Shown here piece after piece: positions 28,676-41,771 of a stretch of 64,000 nt of DNA (the stretch's first letter is position 1; each line of letters opens with the position of its first letter). Position numbers and translations under genes: made by a program. Under the pieces are notes generated by a model. It ran no database searches. It was not told where the DNA came from and was given only the letters and a program-made list of their open reading frames with translations. Origin of the DNA: Phenylobacterium sp. (GTDB lineage Bacteria; Pseudomonadota; Alphaproteobacteria; Caulobacterales; Caulobacteraceae); the NCBI RefSeq assembly GCF_013911965.1, contig NZ_JACESE010000006.1, forward strand, positions 62,001-126,000, read 5' to 3'.

Positions 28676-30058
28676 ATGGCCTTGAAGAACGACGGATCGG
28701 CGGGTCTGAAGGACCCCTTGGGTCTCGATAGGCAAAGCACCGCCCTGCTGCAAGGTGAGCTCGCCTGGGACGAGGCCGTCCTGAAGCAGGGCCGCCTGCG
28801 GGTCCGCACGGTGGTGACCCTCCGGTGGGTGCTGGTGGCCGGCGAGGCCGCCCTGCTGACGCTCGCGGCCACGACCCTGGACTTCGCCGCGCCCTACGCG
28901 CTCTGCTTCGCCCTCGTGGGACTGGCCGCCTGGGCCAATCTGCTGGTGGGGATCGCGACCCCGGGCCAGCGTCTGCTGAGCCCCACCGAGGCCGCCGTCC
29001 AGCTCGGCTTCGACGTCGTCCAGGTCTCGGCCCTGGTCTTCCTGACCGGCGGCATCGTCAATCCGTTCGTCATCATGATGGTGGCCCCGGTGGCCCTGGC
29101 GGCCGCCACCCAGCCCCTCAGCGCAATCCTGGCCCTCACGGGCGGCGCGGCGGCCTGCGCCCTGGCGCTCACCTTCGCCTCCCTTCCCCTGCCCGGTCCG
29201 GACGGCGCGGCGCTGCACCTGCCCTTCAGCTACCGGCTCGGCGCCCTGGGCGCGCTGCTGGGCGGACTGGGCGTGACGGCCAGCTATGTGCGCGAAGCCG
29301 CCCAGGAGACCGCCCGCCGGGCCCTGGCGCTGGACGTGACGCAGGCGGTGCTGGCGCGCGAACGCCGTCTCTCGGCCCTCGGCGCCCTGGCCGCGGCGGC
29401 CGCGCACGAACTGGGCACGCCGCTCGCCACCATCGCCATCGTGGCCAAGGAGATGGCCCGCGAAGCGACCGACGGGCAGGTCAAGGAGGACGCCGAGCTG
29501 CTCATGGCCCAGGCCCAGCGCTGCCGGGAGATTCTCACCCGGCTGACCCAGACGCCCGACGCCTCCGACGAGGTCCATGAGCGGATGAGCCTTCTGCAGC
29601 TGCTGCAGGAAGTCATCGAGCCCCACCGCGAGGTCAAGGGCGTGCGCCTGGAAGCCATCGTCACCGGCGCGCCGGGCGTGAAGAAGCCGGCCCTCATCCG
29701 AATGCCGGAGGTGACCCACGCCGTCTCCTCCTTCGTCGAGAACGCCGTCGACTTCGCGGCCTCCGAGGTGCTGGTCACGGCGCGCTTCGACGCCGAAACG
29801 ATCACCGTCGAGGTGCGCGACGACGGGCCCGGCTTCGCGCCGGAGATCCTGGCGCGTCTCGGCGAGCCCTATGTCACCAGCCGGCCGGGCGCCGAAGGAT
29901 CGCGGACGGGCCACATCGGGATGGGGCTGGGCTTCTTCATTTCGAAGACCCTCCTGGAACGGACAGGCGCCACCGTGACTTTCCAGAACGGGCGTCCCCG
30001 CGGAGCCGTCGTCTCGGTCCGCTGGCCTCGCGAGAAGGTGGAGGCGATCCATGGCTGA
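28676..30058 (+). CDS. regB: Redox-sensing histidine kinase RegB/PrrB/ActS
   Basis: 460 residues with about six membrane helices in the first 205. Family hallmarks are the quinone-binding loop GGIVNPF (125-131), the H-box AAAAAHELGTPLATIAI with phospho-His H244, and the redox-active Cys283 in QRCREILTRL. The ATPase domain has DDGPGF and GMGLGFFISK. It senses respiratory redox state through quinones and the Cys and phosphorylates RegA, whose gene follows. Confidence 0.95.
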   Translation: MALKNDGSAGLKDPLGLDRQSTALLQGELAWDEAVLKQGRLRVRTVVTLRWVLVAGEAALLTLAATTLDFAAPYALCFALVGLAAWANLLVGIATPGQRLLSPTEAAVQLGFDVVQVSALVFLTGGIVNPFVIMMVAPVALAAATQPLSAILALTGGAAACALALTFASLPLPGPDGAALHLPFSYRLGALGALLGGLGVTASYVREAAQETARRALALDVTQAVLARERRLSALGALAAAAAHELGTPLATIAIVAKEMAREATDGQVKEDAELLMAQAQRCREILTRLTQTPDASDEVHERMSLLQLLQEVIEPHREVKGVRLEAIVTGAPGVKKPALIRMPEVTHAVSSFVENAVDFAASEVLVTARFDAETITVEVRDDGPGFAPEILARLGEPYVTSRPGAEGSRTGHIGMGLGFFISKTLLERTGATVTFQNGRPRGAVVSVRWPREKVEAIHG

Positions 30059-30144: not shown

Positions 30145-30702
30145 ATGACCGATTTGAGCGCCCAGATCGACGCGTTGCCGGACAAGAGCCTGTTGCTCAT
30201 GGACGACGACAGCGCCTTGCGCACGCGTCTGGGCCGCGCCCTGGAAGGTCGGGGCTTCGAACCCGTCCTGGTGGGCAGCGTCACCGAGGCGCTGGCGGCG
30301 GTGAAGGTCTTTCCGCCCGCCTTCGCCGTCCTCGACATGCGCCTGGAGGACGGAACCGGCCTGCAGGTGGTGGAGGCCATGCGCGAAGCCCGGCCCGATT
30401 CCAAGGTCATCATGCTGACCGGCTACGGCAACATCGCCACCGCCGTGGCCGCGGTGAAGGCCGGGGCGGTGGACTACCTCTCCAAACCCGCCGACGCCGA
30501 CGATGTCGCCCGCGCCCTGCTCGCCCTGCCCGGCGATGCGCCGGCCCCGCCGGAGAACCCGATGAGCGCCGACCGCGTGCGCTGGGAGCACATCCAGCGG
30601 GTCTACGAGCTCTGCGGCCACAATGTCTCCGAGACCGCGCGCCGGCTGAACATGCATCGCCGGACCCTGCAGCGGATCCTGGCCAAGCGGGCGCCGCGCT
30701 AG
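30145..30702 (+). CDS. regA: Response regulator RegA/PrrA/ActR
   Basis: 185 residues from ATG 30145 with AGGA upstream; an earlier in-frame start at 30082 adds an unrelated tail. The receiver has D20-D22 and phospho-acceptor D64 (AVLDMRLEDGTGL). The C-terminal Fis-type helix-turn-helix (ETARRLNMHRRTLQRILAKRAPR region) is nearly invariant in the family. It controls respiration, and often carbon and nitrogen fixation genes, according to redox state. Its stop overlaps the mmcB stop in a CTAG. Confidence 0.95.
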   Translation: MTDLSAQIDALPDKSLLLMDDDSALRTRLGRALEGRGFEPVLVGSVTEALAAVKVFPPAFAVLDMRLEDGTGLQVVEAMREARPDSKVIMLTGYGNIATAVAAVKAGAVDYLSKPADADDVARALLALPGDAPAPPENPMSADRVRWEHIQRVYELCGHNVSETARRLNMHRRTLQRILAKRAPR

Positions 30703-31887: not shown

Positions 31888-33018
31888 CTATTCCGCCGCG
31901 ATGGTCACCGGCGCGGCGGCGCGGTCCTTGAAGTTGATCGCCTGCAGGTAGCGGATGCCGTCCTCGGCGATGTCGTCGCCCACCATCCGCTCGCCCTCGC
32001 CGGCCAGTTCGTCCATGTCGACATACATGGCGTAGAAGCCGCGGGTGCGGTCGGTGATCAGGCCGGCGTTCAGCAGGGTCTTCACCAGCACGCGGAAGAT
32101 GTTGGTCTCGCCCGTGAACTTGCGGTTGGCATCGCGCTCCTTGCGGCGCTGGACGATATCGGCGACCACCCGCTCAGGATCGAGGCCGAACTGGCCGTAG
32201 ATCTCGGCCTGCTGGCGGGGATCGCCGCGGTCGAACAGGAGCTTCTGGGCGCAGTGGGCGGTCCAGTCCTCCATGATGTTGCGCTCGGCTTCGGAGAGGT
32301 GCGGCACCGTCCGGTCGGCCCAGATCTTCCCGAACTTGTGGTGGAAGGCCTCGTCGGTCATCACCAGCTGGAAAAGCTTCCTGGCCAGGGGGTCGCGGTT
32401 GTTCTTGTAGCCGTTGGCGAAGGCCCCCATGGCCAGGCCCTCGACCAGCATCTGCATGCCGACGACCTTCTTATAGACCTCCGGCGCTTCGATGATCTCG
32501 ATCAGCAGGGACTTCAGCGCCGCGCCGCATTCGGTGGGCCGGCCCCAGCGGGCCTTGATGTACCTGGCGAAGGCGGTGACGTGGCGGGCTTCCTCGCGCG
32601 TCTGGTTGGCCGCGTACTCCTGGGCGCCCTGATCCTTCAGCACGTGGCAGAGGCTGGCCGACAGGTTCAGCGCCCCCTGCTCCCCATGCAGGATGGAGGA
32701 GAAGTTGCGCAGCTGCATGTAGTTGATGAAGCGGACCTTCTCCTTCGGGTCCTTCAGCGTCTCGGCGATATAGGGCAGCCGCAGCAGGGGCTGCTGGGCC
32801 TCGTCGATCATGGGCTCGTTTTCCATGTCGAAGGGCTCGTCGAAGTCGATGTACTTCGGATCCAGCGGGTCCCAGAAGTGGTCGTGCGTGGCCGAGATGA
32901 TCTTGTCGAAGGCGGTGGAGCGGGCGTTGTAGCGGTCCAGCTCCAGCATGGACTCGAAGTCGTCGGGGGCCACGGCCCCGTACATGACGTCCTTGGTGAT
33001 GTTGCCGTCGGCGGCCAT
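31888..33018 (-). CDS. Ferritin-like diiron protein, copy A
   Basis: 376 residues from the ATG with GGGAGG upstream. It has the ligand set of a four-helix diiron site: E113 (LHGEQGAL), E143 and H146 (REEARH), E193 (MLVEGLA), E223 and H226 (DEAFHH). Such E, ExxH, E, ExxH sites occur in ferritin-like oxygenases, R2-type reductase subunits and acyl-modifying diiron enzymes. I do not recognise a named family. It is one of three tandem paralogues of equal length and is the most divergent, notably at residues 68-103. It has its own terminator. The reaction is unknown. Confidence 0.82.
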   Translation of the reverse strand: MAADGNITKDVMYGAVAPDDFESMLELDRYNARSTAFDKIISATHDHFWDPLDPKYIDFDEPFDMENEPMIDEAQQPLLRLPYIAETLKDPKEKVRFINYMQLRNFSSILHGEQGALNLSASLCHVLKDQGAQEYAANQTREEARHVTAFARYIKARWGRPTECGAALKSLLIEIIEAPEVYKKVVGMQMLVEGLAMGAFANGYKNNRDPLARKLFQLVMTDEAFHHKFGKIWADRTVPHLSEAERNIMEDWTAHCAQKLLFDRGDPRQQAEIYGQFGLDPERVVADIVQRRKERDANRKFTGETNIFRVLVKTLLNAGLITDRTRGFYAMYVDMDELAGEGERMVGDDIAEDGIRYLQAINFKDRAAAPVTIAAE

Positions 33019-33043
33019 GGATATCCTCCCTGCGGCGCCCGTC

Positions 33044-33057
33044 TGACGCGGGCGCTC
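33044..33057. promoter_or_regulatory. Decayed copy of the shared palindrome upstream of copy A
   Basis: TGACGCGGGCGCTC matches 11 of 14 positions of TGACGC-N2-GCGTCA; only the left half is intact. It lies 26 bases upstream of the copy A start. Confidence 0.3.
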
Positions 33058-33079
33058 GTCGACCACACGCTCACGGGGT

Positions 33080-33095
33080 GAACGCTGTTCGTCAA
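33080..33095 (-). promoter_or_regulatory. Conserved element upstream of copy A (GAAC-N3-GTTC with TTGAC)
   Basis: On the plus strand GAACGCTGTTC (33080-33090) runs into GTCAA; on the gene's strand this reads TTGAC-GAACAGCGTTC. The same arrangement stands before copies B and C. TTGAC could be the -35 element and the palindrome an operator; no convincing -10 was found. Confidence 0.45.
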
Positions 33096-33128
33096 AGGGT
33101 TTCGGGCGATGGCGCCTGTGAACAACCC

Positions 33129-33803
33129 TCAACGACTGTCTGGCGCTGCGCTCCGCCCTACGCTGGGTTCAGTTCCCGCAAGAAGACGGCGGATGTTGGC
33201 GTCGTGGCGGACGATCACGAAGAGGCCGCCTGCGATGACAAAGAGGCGGTAGGGAAGCGGATGCTCCAGTGCGCAGACCAGGACGATCGCTGTAACTGCT
33301 GCAGCCATCGAGCCGAGAGACATGATCCGAAAGAGGGCCAGCGTGAGCCCGAACACCGCCAAGCCCCCCAGACCGACCGGCCATGACATCGCCAGCAGCA
33401 CACCAAGTCCCGCTGCGACGGACTTGCCGCCGTTGAACCTCAGCCAGACCGGACGGGCGTGCCCCACAAGCGCAGCAAGACCCGCAAGACAGATGGTCCA
33501 AGACGTGAGCGTGCCGAGGTCCGCCACCGACGGCGGCGTAATGCTCTGGCGGGCATAGGTCCAGGCAACGACCTCGCGGACGAGGATGACCGACATGGCC
33601 CCCTTCAAGACATCCAAGGAGAGGACCACCGCAAACGGCCATGAACCCAGGGTTCGCAGGACGTTTGTCGCGCCAGTGGACTTGGAGCCGTACTCCCGGA
33701 TGTCGATGCCTTTGAGCAGTCGCCCGGCCAGATACCCCGTCGGGACGGAGCCGAGGAGATAGGCCGCCGCCAATCCAACGGCGATGAGTGTCCAGAAGGC
33801 CAT
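33129..33803 (-). CDS. plsY: Glycerol-3-phosphate acyltransferase PlsY, resembling the cyanobacterial branch
   Basis: 224 residues, multi-pass membrane protein. The signatures are GSKSTGATNVLRTLG (usual GSGNIGATN), GHARPVWLRFNGGKSVA and WPVGLGGLAVFGLTLALFRIMSLGS. The Ser-Thr in the first motif, NGGKSVA instead of KGGKGVA, and the LLAMSWPVGL segment recall cyanobacterial PlsY. It transfers acyl from acyl-phosphate to glycerol 3-phosphate. It sits between two diiron paralogues, with lower GC than its neighbours by eye. Transfer from elsewhere is possible. Confidence 0.85.
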   Translation of the reverse strand: MAFWTLIAVGLAAAYLLGSVPTGYLAGRLLKGIDIREYGSKSTGATNVLRTLGSWPFAVVLSLDVLKGAMSVILVREVVAWTYARQSITPPSVADLGTLTSWTICLAGLAALVGHARPVWLRFNGGKSVAAGLGVLLAMSWPVGLGGLAVFGLTLALFRIMSLGSMAAAVTAIVLVCALEHPLPYRLFVIAGGLFVIVRHDANIRRLLAGTEPSVGRSAAPDSR

Positions 33804-33827
33804 GGGGTTCCTGGGGTCGGCAGCTAG

Positions 33828-33855
33828 AAAAAGGGCGGGCCCAAAGACCCGCCCC
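33828..33855 (-). terminator. Terminator after diiron copy B
   Basis: GGGCGGG (33833-33839) pairs with CCCGCCC (33848-33854); on the minus strand TTTTT follows. It lies 26 bases beyond the copy B stop and just before plsY. Confidence 0.85.
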
Positions 33856-33880
33856 TCTTCATTCGATCGACGTTCGCGAC

Positions 33881-35011
33881 CTACTCCGCCGCGATGGTCA
33901 CGGGCTTGAGCGCCCGGTCCTTGAAGTTGATGGCCTGGAGATAGACGATCCCCTCCTCGGCGATGTCGTCGCCGACCATGCGGTCGCCCTCGGACTTCAG
34001 CTCGTCCATGTCGACATACATGCCGTAGAAGGCCTTGGTGCGGTCGGTGATGATGCCGGCGTTCAGCAGGGTCTTGATCAACACCCGGAAGATGTTGGTC
34101 GATTCCTTCATGTCCTCGCGGCGGGCCTCGTCGGTGGCCAGCTTCTGGATCTCTTCCAGCACCTTGTCGGGATCGAGGCCGAACTCCTCATAGAGGTCGC
34201 GCTGCTCGCTGGGCGAGACGAGGTTGAAGAGCAGGACCTGGAAGCAGTGGGCCGCCCAATCCTCGATGATCTCGTGTTCCTGCTGGGTCAGCTTCGGAAT
34301 GGTCCGGTCGGCCCAGATCTTCCCGAACTTGTGGTGGAAGGCCTCGTCGGTCATGACGAGCTGCATCAGCTTGCGGCCCAGCGGGTCGTTGAGCTTCTGG
34401 TAGAAGGTGGCGAAGGCGCCCATGGCCAGGCCCTCGACCAGCATCTGCATGCCGATGATCTTCTTGTAGACCTCAGGGCTGCCGATGATGTCGACCAGCA
34501 GGTCCTGAAGGACCTTGGAGCATTCCACCGGCCGGCCCCAGCGGGCCTTGATGTACTTGGCGAAGGCCGTGACGTGGCGGGCTTCTTCGCGGGTCTGGTT
34601 GGCGGCGTACTCCTGCGCGCCCTGGTCCAGCAGCACGTGGCACAGGCTGGCCGACAGGTTCAGCGCGCCCTGCTCGCCGTGCAGGATCGAGGAGAAGGAC
34701 CGCAGCAGCGACTTGTTGATGAACTGGGCCCGCAGGCTCGGATCGCTGAGGTGGTTGCGGACATAGTCGGTCTGCAGGGCGACGTTCAGCTCCTCGGGCA
34801 CCAGGGGCTCGTTGTCCATGTCCCAGGGCTCGTCGAAGTCGATGTACTTCTTGTCGAGCGGATCCCAGAAGTGGTCGTGGGTCGCCGAGATGATCTTGTC
34901 GAAGGCCGTGGAGCGCGAATTGTAGCGGTCCAGGTCGAGCATGGACTCGAAGTCGTCGGGCGCGACGGCTTCGTAGATGAGGTCCTTGGTGATGTTGCCG
35001 TCGGCGGCCAT
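33881..35011 (-). CDS. Ferritin-like diiron protein, copy B
   Basis: 376 residues, collinear with copies A and C without gaps by eye. The diiron ligands E113, E143, H146, E193, E223 and H226 are all kept. It is closer to copy C than to A. Start at MAADGNITKD, shared by all three; the ORF extends upstream in frame but without support. GGAGG lies before the ATG. It has its own upstream elements and terminator, so it is a separate transcription unit. Function unknown; diiron oxygenase or oxidase chemistry is inferred. Confidence 0.82.
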   Translation of the reverse strand: MAADGNITKDLIYEAVAPDDFESMLDLDRYNSRSTAFDKIISATHDHFWDPLDKKYIDFDEPWDMDNEPLVPEELNVALQTDYVRNHLSDPSLRAQFINKSLLRSFSSILHGEQGALNLSASLCHVLLDQGAQEYAANQTREEARHVTAFAKYIKARWGRPVECSKVLQDLLVDIIGSPEVYKKIIGMQMLVEGLAMGAFATFYQKLNDPLGRKLMQLVMTDEAFHHKFGKIWADRTIPKLTQQEHEIIEDWAAHCFQVLLFNLVSPSEQRDLYEEFGLDPDKVLEEIQKLATDEARREDMKESTNIFRVLIKTLLNAGIITDRTKAFYGMYVDMDELKSEGDRMVGDDIAEEGIVYLQAINFKDRALKPVTIAAE

Positions 35012-35125
35012 GCGTTCCTCCAGGAATGATGTGGGCTTGCCGGCGCCCTTGATCCGCATTTCGGGACCAGGTCCCGCTGTCGCGACGGATGGGCGGCTCT
35101 GTGCTTGGGCCCAAGCCTGACTCGT

Positions 35126-35142
35126 TGACCGGCGTTCGTCAA
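35126..35142 (-). promoter_or_regulatory. Conserved element upstream of copy B
   Basis: GACCGGCGTTC (35127-35137) followed by GTCAAAG; one mismatch to the palindrome GAAC-N3-GTTC, with TTGAC in the same place as before copies A and C. Confidence 0.4.
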
Positions 35143-35151
35143 AGGAAACCG

Positions 35152-35165
35152 TGACGCCCGCGTCA
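35152..35165. promoter_or_regulatory. Shared palindrome upstream of copy B
   Basis: TGACGCCCGCGTCA is a perfect 14-base palindrome (TGACGC-N2-GCGTCA), 141 bases upstream of the copy B start. An equal-quality palindrome stands before the ferredoxin reductase gene (41758-41771). With its flank it reads as TGAC-N6-GTCAA, similar in layout to Crp/Fnr-family sites. Confidence 0.55.
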
Positions 35166-35191
35166 ATTTTCGGAGAGGACGCCCCGCCGCC

Positions 35192-35226
35192 GAAAGAAAA
35201 CGCCCGCCGGACGGGTCCGGCGGGCG
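35192..35226 (-). terminator. Terminator after diiron copy C
   Basis: An 11-bp perfect stem, CGCCCGCCGGA (35201-35211) with TCCGGCGGGCG (35216-35226), followed on the minus strand by TTTTCTTTC. It lies 31 bases beyond the copy C stop. Confidence 0.92.
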
Positions 35227-35256
35227 AAGGTCGATGAGATGGAAAGGGCGGCGGCC

Positions 35257-36387
35257 CTATTCGGCCGCGATGGTCACCGGGGCGGCCATGCGGTCCTTGA
35301 AGTTGATCTCCTGGAGGTACTTGATGCCCTCCTCGGCGATGTCGTCGCCGACCATCCGGTCGCCTTCGGCCTTCAGCTCGTCCATGTCCACATAGGTGGC
35401 GTAGAAGGCCCGCGTGCGGTCGGTGATGATGCCCGCGTTGAGCAGGGTCTTCACCAGCACGCGGAAGATGTTGGTCTGCTCCTTCATGTTCTCCCGGCGG
35501 GTCTCGTCGGTGACCATCTCGGCCATCTCGGCGATCACCTTGTCCGGATCCAGGCCGAACTCCTCATAGAGGTCGCGCTGCTGGCTGGGGGAGACCAGGT
35601 TGAAGAGCAGGGTCTGGAAGCAGTGGGCCGCCCAGTCCTCGATGATGGCGTGCTCTTCGGCGTTCAGGTGCGGGATGGTCCGGTCGGCCCAGATCTTCCC
35701 GAACTTGTGGTGGAAGGCTTCATCCGTCATGACCAGCTGAAGGAGCTTCTTGCCGGTCGGATCGTTGATGTTGTTGAAGAAGGTGGCGAAAGCGCCCATG
35801 GCCAGGCCTTCCACCAGCATCTGCATGCCGATGATCTTCTTGTAGACCTCCGGGCTGCCGATGATCTCCACCAGCAGGGTCTTCAGCGTCGGGCCGCATT
35901 CCACCGGACGGCCCCAGCGGGCCTTGATGTACTTGGCGAAGGCCGTGACGTGGCGGGCTTCTTCACGGGTCTGGTTGGCGGCGTATTCCTGCGCGCCCTG
36001 GTCCTTCAGCACGTGGCACAGGCTGGCCGACAGGTTCAGCGCCCCCTGCTCGCCGTGCAGGATGGAGGAGAAGGAGCGCAGGGCCGACTGGTTCACGAAG
36101 CGGACGCGGGTCTTCCAGTCCGACAGGTGGTTGGAGACGTAGTCCGTGGACATGGAGATGATCATGTCCTCGGGCAGGATCATCTCGTTTTCCATGTCGA
36201 AGGGCTCGGAGAAGTCGATGTACTTCTTGTCGAGCGGATCCCAGAAATGGTCGTGGGTGGCCGAGATGATCTTGTCGAAGGCCGTGGAGCGCGCGTTGTA
36301 GCGGTCCAGCTCCAGCATCGACTCGAAGTCGTCGGGGGCGACGGCGTCGTAGATGATGTCCTTGGTGATGTTGCCGTCGGCGGCCAT
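35257..36387 (-). CDS. Ferritin-like diiron protein, copy C
   Basis: 376 residues with the same ligand set as copies A and B (E113, E143, H146, E193, E223, H226). The core around the diiron site is almost identical among copies, while residues 68-103 and parts after about 260 vary, suggesting different partners or substrates. The conserved tail ends in PVTIAAE in all three. It stands first in the minus-strand series, with its own promoter region and terminator. No known family name is offered. Confidence 0.82.
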   Translation of the reverse strand: MAADGNITKDIIYDAVAPDDFESMLELDRYNARSTAFDKIISATHDHFWDPLDKKYIDFSEPFDMENEMILPEDMIISMSTDYVSNHLSDWKTRVRFVNQSALRSFSSILHGEQGALNLSASLCHVLKDQGAQEYAANQTREEARHVTAFAKYIKARWGRPVECGPTLKTLLVEIIGSPEVYKKIIGMQMLVEGLAMGAFATFFNNINDPTGKKLLQLVMTDEAFHHKFGKIWADRTIPHLNAEEHAIIEDWAAHCFQTLLFNLVSPSQQRDLYEEFGLDPDKVIAEMAEMVTDETRRENMKEQTNIFRVLVKTLLNAGIITDRTRAFYATYVDMDELKAEGDRMVGDDIAEEGIKYLQEINFKDRMAAPVTIAAE

Positions 36388-36476: not shown

Positions 36477-36495
36477 TGAACGGCGTTCAGTCAAC
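36477..36495 (-). promoter_or_regulatory. Conserved element upstream of copy C
   Basis: TGAACGGCGTTCA (36477-36489) is a perfect palindrome, followed by GTCAAC; on the gene's strand TTGACTGAACGCCGTTCA. It is the best of the three copies of this element. Confidence 0.5.
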
Positions 36496-36500
36496 GAAGA

Positions 36501-36514
36501 TGACGGGGGCGTCA
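36501..36514. promoter_or_regulatory. Shared palindrome upstream of copy C
   Basis: TGACGGGGGCGTCA matches TGACGC-N2-GCGTCA with one mismatch, 114 bases upstream of the copy C start and 11 bases beyond the GAAC-N3-GTTC element. Confidence 0.5.
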
Positions 36515-40164: not shown

Positions 40165-41734
<1,570 letters not shown>

Positions 41735-41757: not shown

Positions 41758-41771
41758 TGACGCCTGCGTCA
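41758..41771. promoter_or_regulatory. Shared palindrome upstream of ferredoxin reductase
   Basis: TGACGCCTGCGTCA, a perfect TGACGC-N2-GCGTCA palindrome 24 bases before the reductase start. On the gene's strand it begins TTGACGC, so it may cover a -35 element. Confidence 0.55.

Follow-up and report, generated by a model that had tools for sequence, protein, structure and literature searches.

The stretch of DNA analysed here (the window) comprises 64,000 nucleotides of a Phenylobacterium genome (Caulobacteraceae; contig NZ_JACESE010000006.1, positions 62,001 to 126,000), and positions below are counted from its first nucleotide. Its reverse strand carries three paralogous genes, A, B and C, whose products each hold the ligand residues of a diiron site.

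31888 to 33018, reverse strand: diiron paralogue A, 376 residues
33881 to 35011, reverse strand: diiron paralogue B, 376 residues from the start MAADGN (392 residues from an upstream ATG)
35257 to 36387, reverse strand: diiron paralogue C, 376 residues, the copy at the conserved chromosomal place

The initial annotation of this DNA had described three 376-residue open reading frames (ORFs) that align without gaps and each keep a full E/ExxH/E/ExxH set, and this was confirmed by the coordinates, the alignment and the ligand residues. Pairwise identity among A, B and C was 71-82% in a gap-free alignment. E113, E143, H146, E193, E223 and H226 were present in all three, spaced as E113-X29-E143xxH146 and E193-X29-E223xxH226, and every one of 71 aligned family members and of four outgroup relatives kept all six residues, more than chance would give. 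The variation described around residues 68-103 proved real, and that in the C-terminal half can be given more closely as a second stretch at about residues 266-304, in which A is merely 27-30% identical to B and C. The copies do lie together, in the order C-B-A, but the tandem is broken by a second plsY gene between A and B. Nor does the triplet make up the whole set, as the host genome (3.86 Mb) contains a fourth full diiron copy (78% identity) on contig C11 and a relative of 34% identity on contig C29. The description of each copy as its own unit held for B and C, each of which has its own operator and TTGAC element, and failed for A, which has no operator here.

This operator, found by comparing upstream regions, has the core TGACG-N4-CGTCA followed by TTGAC, and across 127 aligned exact sites, mostly from Caulobacteraceae, the palindrome extends to AANNTGACG-N4-CGTCANNTT. 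In the window it stands before B and C, and the palindrome stands also before a ferredoxin reductase gene (FdR) that is followed by a ferredoxin gene (Fdx).

35138 to 35165, reverse strand: operator of B, with TGACG-N4-CGTCA at 35152-35165, then TTGAC
36490 to 36514, reverse strand: operator of C, with TGACG-N4-CGTCA at 36501-36514, then TTGAC
41758 to 41771, no strand assigned: exact copy of the operator palindrome, 24 bp before FdR begins
40505 to 41734, reverse strand: FdR, NAD(P)H-dependent ferredoxin reductase of the putidaredoxin-reductase type
40165 to 40485, reverse strand: Fdx, [2Fe-2S] ferredoxin of the putidaredoxin/ferredoxin VI type, downstream of FdR

Genome-wide, the longer form TGACG-N4-CGTCA-N4-10-TTGAC occurred at two places, which were exactly the promoters of B and C, and the control gave none; TGACG-N4-CGTCA alone occurred at 12 places in 3.86 Mb, as against two for a reversed-pattern control. 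The palindrome was found 40 bp before a CYP153-type P450 gene on C11 (with a divergent gene starting 36 bp to its other side), 56 bp before the 34% diiron relative on C29, and 93 bp before an acyl-CoA dehydrogenase gene (here with a divergent gene 79 bp to the other side). The diiron proteins are therefore not orphans: CYP153-type and ferredoxin-reductase genes carry the operator that stands before B, C and the 34% relative, a link that lies partly outside the window and is missing from the initial annotation.

The operator was then counted in loci fetched without the motif, within 220 bp upstream and with identical upstream regions collapsed; the count covers genes with at least 150 bp upstream and, for CYP153, FdR, Fdx and RegA, matches of at least 45% identity. 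In this controlled count an exact site preceded 109 of 164 diiron genes (91/101 in Caulobacteraceae, 18/63 elsewhere), or 133/164 with up to one mismatch, 9/16 genes for 34%-type relatives and 21/24 FdR genes. Eight of 17 CYP153-type genes had a site with at most one mismatch, and in Caulobacteraceae four of six had an exact one. An exact site preceded two of 32 Fdx genes, a low count that is expected because Fdx follows FdR. No exact site was found before RegA (0/59), MmcB (0/86) or SdhB (0/19) genes in the same count, and palindromes with a spacer of three or five bases gave three hits in all. Other genes had the site in 41 of 2,343 cases (42 before duplicates were collapsed), and each of the 42 lies opposite a diiron, CYP153-type or ferredoxin-system gene, with a single intergenic region between the two. 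In Caulobacter-type loci, L102, L113, L112 and L115 among them, the intergenic region that bears the operator is common to the diiron gene and a divergent gene that by eye is sirtuin-like or acetyl-CoA-synthetase-like.

In a draw of 199 genomes of the family, the longer form (palindrome plus TTGAC) was present in 112. Twenty of its sites, chosen away from known diiron places, were opened. Ten lay before CYP153-type genes, nine of them with an FMN oxidoreductase gene nearby; the other ten comprised one diiron gene, two class II aldolase-like genes, one Coq4/RHH_4 pair and six sites without a clear link. In ten other genomes the palindrome occurred 134 times, as against 21 for the reversed control, and sites were opened in five of these: in G442 15 of 16 (the sixteenth is that of the diiron gene), in G028 14 of 16 and in G025 four of 12 (in each of these two with the diiron site in addition), in G460 three of six (the remaining three are diiron sites) and in G437 five of six. 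Sites in G028 preceded CYP153-type, FdR, diiron-relative, flavin monooxygenase, FMN oxidoreductase, class II aldolase-like and acyl-CoA dehydrogenase genes, while those in G442 preceded diiron, CYP153-type, Fdx, GMC oxidoreductase, metallo-beta-lactamase-fold and MerR genes, those in G025 diiron and CYP153-type genes, and those in G460 two diiron genes, a MerR-like gene and two other genes. It is well supported by these sequence comparisons that one operator is common to diiron, CYP153-type and FdR/Fdx genes, in other families and orders of Alphaproteobacteria too. The assignment of a truncated P450 at locus L278 rests on 57% identity over 341 residues, as it matched no Pfam family at E 1e-10.

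The conserved-neighbourhood survey suggested with the initial annotation, for which genes were called by a simple script with approximate starts, returned RegA, RegB and MmcB genes as recurrent neighbours, and ferredoxin and CYP153-type genes in some loci. At L027 one strand carries, as an operon, genes for a TetR protein, a diiron protein, a ferredoxin, two CYP153-type P450s, a GDSL hydrolase and a second diiron protein. At L034 a CYP153-type gene, on the opposite strand, and a further ORF lie between two diiron genes, and on C11 of our genome (L005) the CYP153-type gene and the fourth diiron copy are 2.1 kb apart, on opposite strands and with two genes between. A ferredoxin gene of the same type directly precedes the 34%-type relative in four loci from three families (L167, L168, L170 and L172). 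The second P450 of L027 and the P450 of L005 matched CYP153A7 (3rwl) at E 1.6e-175 and 2.2e-169, respectively. CYP125, which passages of PMC8197338 predict in Phenylobacterium zucineum, was considered for the P450 and rejected, as CYP125 (engineered chains) matched at E 1e-45 to 8e-65 against the 1.6e-175 of CYP153A7.

A class-wide draw of 385 genomes gave a diiron match in 57, of which 48 held the close subfamily (at least 51% identity). CYP153-type genes (E <=1e-100) were present in 33 of these 48 diiron-positive genomes and in 19 of 337 others (Fisher 6e-23, with kinship ignored). Counted by family, 23 had a diiron gene, 24 had CYP153-type genes and 17 had both.

Membership of A, B and C in known families was judged by the curated score cut-offs of Pfam and NCBIfam, and all three proteins fell below every one of them. 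The AlphaFold model (pLDDT 86.1, pTM 0.88) has a ferritin-like diiron oxidase fold, with the ligands on helices 91-126, 130-157, 181-206 and 210-240; as judged by alignment and fold, the six residues may form one metal site. Placement of the proteins in the ferritin-like diiron oxidase/oxygenase fold class is well supported by sequence and model. The ferritin-like diiron reading of the initial annotation thus gains support from the ligand set, the modelled fold, the structural matches and the alignment of the ligands with those of aldehyde-deformylating oxygenases (ADO). Its remark that no characterised member was known also stood, as no close characterised relative was found: the profile search that it proposed reached no family cut-off, and the structure search returned diiron oxidases. 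Foldseek placed R2lox first (E 2e-3, 15-17% identity), and the R2lox model NF006200 scored 15.4-16.0 bits against a cut-off of 194. We know of no ferredoxin operons for R2lox, and it differs further in its Mn/Fe cofactor and in the low identity just given. It shares the diiron-type fold, and its member GkR2loxI, reported as an alkane monooxygenase in passages of PMC10867098, sets a precedent for alkane hydroxylation by a ferritin-like protein. PF13668 (Ferritin_2) had no match anywhere in the host genome at E 0.001.

The nearest solved sequences to the family profile were those of ADO (4rc5/4rc6; E 4e-4), with the ligands aligned. Ferredoxin is a natural electron donor of ADO. The diiron proteins might accordingly be pictured as ADO-like deformylating oxygenases, which would convert fatty aldehydes downstream of CYP153 into alkane and formate. 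The fold is of the same ferritin-like kind, a listed relative (P0107) is named 'Long-chain fatty aldehyde decarbonylase' by its source, and the ligand spacing matches, since A, B and C each contain two copies of EX28-29EX2H, the ADO signature in passages of PMC4286721. Matches to Ald_deCOase were weak, however: 19.2-22.5 against a Pfam cut-off of 28 (PF11266), and 19.8-23.4 against 222.65 in NCBIfam (TIGR04059). The matched ADO chains have 212-265 residues as against 376 here, and ADO acts in alkane synthesis with acyl-ACP reductase, whereas the regulon here is of the alkane-hydroxylase type, beside which the re-making of alkane would be futile. We consider this explanation improbable.

An AurF-type N-oxygenase or a CylC-type halogenase was likewise weighed. 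Many relatives bear a precomputed PF11583 (AurF) label; A, B and C themselves scored 28.6, 23.6 and 19.4 bits, short of the gathering threshold of 29.6. The third His of AurF, four residues before the Glu of the second ExxH, is absent, being V219 in all three paralogues, and this position in 71 family members holds V in 54, T in 11, A in five and I in one. The CylC motifs QExxH and HxxDExxH (both these and the AurF His as described in passages of PMC12101540) are absent too, the corresponding residues being EExxH and (V/T/A/I)xxDExxH. AurF (2jcd) has a 3-His/4-carboxylate site in contrast to the 2-His/4-Glu site here, at 11% identity, and either of these activities can be given hardly any credence.

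On balance, sequence and model together suggest that the proteins are probably ferredoxin-fed, O2-activating diiron oxygenases that act beside CYP153-type P450s on aliphatic chains, that is, on alkanes or fatty-chain compounds. The CYP153 alkane hydroxylase system (CYP153, ferredoxin and ferredoxin reductase) resembles the diiron system in its use of the same operator in several genomes, in the shared operon of L027 and in the type of its electron carriers; CYP153 is a heme enzyme, and as a protein it is unrelated to the diiron family. The diiron proteins would thus likely be a second, predicted oxygenase of an alkane-P450-type pathway. In such a pathway one regulator would act at all operator sites, and electrons would pass from NAD(P)H through FdR and the [2Fe-2S] ferredoxin to the diiron centre. 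The centre would activate O2, and a peroxo or high-valent species could then insert oxygen into a long aliphatic substrate or desaturate it. A, B, C and the fourth copy may differ in the chain length, branching or head group that they accept, through residues 68-103 and 266-304. More tentatively, and at odds that we would put well short of even, the family may constitute a further class of hydrocarbon hydroxylase: soluble ferritin-like diiron monooxygenases, widespread in Alphaproteobacteria and expanded there in copy number, which would draw on the same putidaredoxin-type FdR/Fdx as CYP153 and be induced together with it by one class-wide regulator through AANNTGACG-N4-CGTCANNTT.

What is new here is an uncharacterised branch of ferritin-like diiron oxidases together with an operator that links it, class-wide, with genes for CYP153-type P450s and ferredoxins; no publication on the family, the operator or the pairing was found in the literature searched, which was mostly that outside subscription. 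Thousands of database proteins gain a testable role, and because likely electron donors, a partner P450 and a control site are named, an assay can be set up at once. Surveys of hydrocarbon-oxidation genes build on AlkB, CYP153, LadA and AlmA. If the proposal is true, Alphaproteobacteria would possess a soluble diiron pathway for hydrocarbons or fatty chains that such surveys do not count. The operator also defines a class-wide gene group.

Several observations weigh against a CYP153-linked role. In our own genome other sites precede a GDPD gene, an ABC-type gene (by eye) and a 97-residue ORF, two lie inside ORFs, and the operator also precedes Coq4/RHH_4 and MerR genes. The best match before A has three mismatches and that before the C11 diiron copy has four, and the second CYP153-type gene of the genome (on C1) has an operator with one mismatch. 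The exact site stood before just five of 17 CYP153-type genes in the controlled count, and before one of 11 outside Caulobacteraceae. Coding sequences held all five opened sites of G437, nine of 16 sites of G442 and five or six of the opened sites of G028. At L034 and L005 the nearby P450 gene is read from the opposite strand, and several family members have cbb3 oxidase or RegBA genes next to them. Of the 48 diiron-positive genomes, 15 gave no match to CYP153 at E 1e-100, and the association ignores phylogeny. Finally, the 50 best rows of VIA-align, which re-aligns the top 1,000 chains of Foldseek, hold AurF, CmlI, R2lox and ribonucleotide reductase R2 chains and no ADO.

The genes beside several members also bear on the nature of the substrate. 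Acyl-CoA ligase, acyl-CoA dehydrogenase and enoyl-CoA hydratase genes (named by eye) adjoin them, the neighbours of the array in the window include a lipocalin gene and the second plsY (plsY2), and an acyl-CoA dehydrogenase (68% identical) is under the operator in both G000 and G028. These fit a ferredoxin-dependent desaturase or hydroxylase that modifies the acyl chains of the cell itself (acyl-CoA, acyl-ACP or membrane lipid) and is induced when fatty chains are abundant. The opened sites of the operator also have partners (CYP153-type P450, FdR/Fdx, a GMC oxidoreductase and a flavin monooxygenase) that fit external or released chains better, however, and plsY2 is not conserved in the loci examined. 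We hold this lipid-modifying role to be unlikely, though worth keeping in view, and prefer the CYP153-linked oxygenase.

The recurrent neighbours of the diiron genes were a redox regulatory pair, both members of which in the window pass their NCBIfam cut-offs, together with MmcB.

28676 to 30058, forward strand: RegB/ActS/PrrB redox histidine kinase, recurrent neighbour
30145 to 30702, forward strand: RegA/ActR/PrrA redox response regulator, recurrent neighbour

Of 72 loci, 23 had RegA within eight genes of the diiron gene, 21 had RegB and 20 had MmcB. These loci carry 25 family labels (f1 and f1b stand for a single family), and RegA, RegB and MmcB each occur in 10 labels. This neighbourhood is the conserved place of the C-type copy, and its recurrence is read as conserved position because RegA and MmcB lack the exact operator; RegBA was rejected as a functional clue on the same ground. 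Diiron genes lie near cbb3-type oxidase genes (by eye) at L069, L072 and L172, which suggests a low-oxygen link in some lineages, and the C29 relative lies near an alternative-oxidase-like gene (by eye).

The neighbours RegA, cbb3 oxidase (L069 and L072) and the alternative-oxidase-like gene would suit a protein of oxygen or redox adaptation, controlled by RegBA or by low oxygen, that scavenges O2 or handles iron or peroxide. The zero counts of the exact operator before RegA and MmcB speak against such a role, as does the expansion of paralogues with variable segments, which fits substrate diversity better, and we judge it very improbable. Control by FNR was also rejected, a strict FNR-like box being found in a single one (L113) of 21 upstream regions. 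The architecture of the operator itself bears a resemblance, and no more, to CRP/FNR-like sites.

The family is widespread. A protein search retained, at E 0.001, 5,983 of the 7,998 candidates that it scored. Of the 120 matches listed, which were 89-100% identical, most had no name or were entered as 'hypothetical protein' or 'ferritin-like domain-containing protein'; one was called 'DUF3066', and another is the decarbonylase-named entry mentioned above. Relatives of the 34% type were listed with 'ferritin-like', and individual ones went under AurF or ribonucleotide reductase beta chain. Positive genomes had at least one to five diiron copies each, the numbers being lower bounds as at most four or five candidates were scored per genome (our own genome being counted). 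In a draw across the phylum 10 of 299 genomes matched.

In trees B and C fell among Caulobacteraceae genes, A grouped with the second diiron gene of the CYP153/ferredoxin operon L027 (G338, of another order), and the C11 copy grouped with the other diiron gene of the L027 genome. Among 89 loci with a full, stop-free member, which include duplicate records of one genome (such as L021 and L161), the order C-B-A occurred in three (this window, L094 and L096), C-B in eight and C-A in four. Ratios of dN/dS by the NG86 method were 0.15-0.25 between orthologues and 0.40-0.59 between the A, B and C paralogues. As judged from coding sequence, the C-B-A array in two related genomes is under purifying selection, and the selection on the copies for which the initial annotation had argued is borne out by the orthologue ratios and by the recurrence of the order in L094 and L096. 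Over codons 1-38 in our genome third-position identity was 0.76-0.84 between paralogues, as against 0.59-0.71 between orthologues; this is suggestive, and no more, of gene conversion among A, B and C, of which L094 and L096 gave no clear sign.

The gene that separates A from B was considered as a functional partner and rejected.

33129 to 33803, reverse strand: second plsY, between A and B

It is 43% identical over 219 residues to the plsY on C12 and has a GC3 of 0.76 and atypical codons. A tblastn screen of 18 loci from other genomes, chosen outside L087-L165, did not find it, and in L094 and L096 the interval between B and A is below 200 bp, which leaves no room for it. A-type genes elsewhere had an exact operator (L094, L021 and L161), one mismatch (L096) or none (L098, L124 and L027), and because they too vary, the absence of the operator at A need not stem from plsY.

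The ferritin-like protein CC0557 of Caulobacter, as it appears in a passage of PMC3751524, was left aside, not being matched to this diiron family. Palindromes with T-rich centres precede MerR-family genes at L268 and L283 (L283 by eye), and may belong to a different, LiuR-like regulator. The LiuR motif itself is not printed in passages of PMC5343134. The operator palindrome also lies in the intergenic region between Coq4-like and RHH_4 genes at L219 (C25:11606-11619 of our own genome) and, by eye, at L237; these exact sites belong to G000 and, by eye, to G722, and RHH_4 (ribbon-helix-helix) could be an autoregulated regulator of the operator sites. A second palindrome lies beside the operator of C.

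36477 to 36489, no strand assigned: second palindrome TGAACGCCGTTCA, downstream of the TTGAC element of C and before the C start

The same sequence recurs exactly only once more in the genome, at L184, where it stands some 40 bp upstream of a gene for nitronate monooxygenase.

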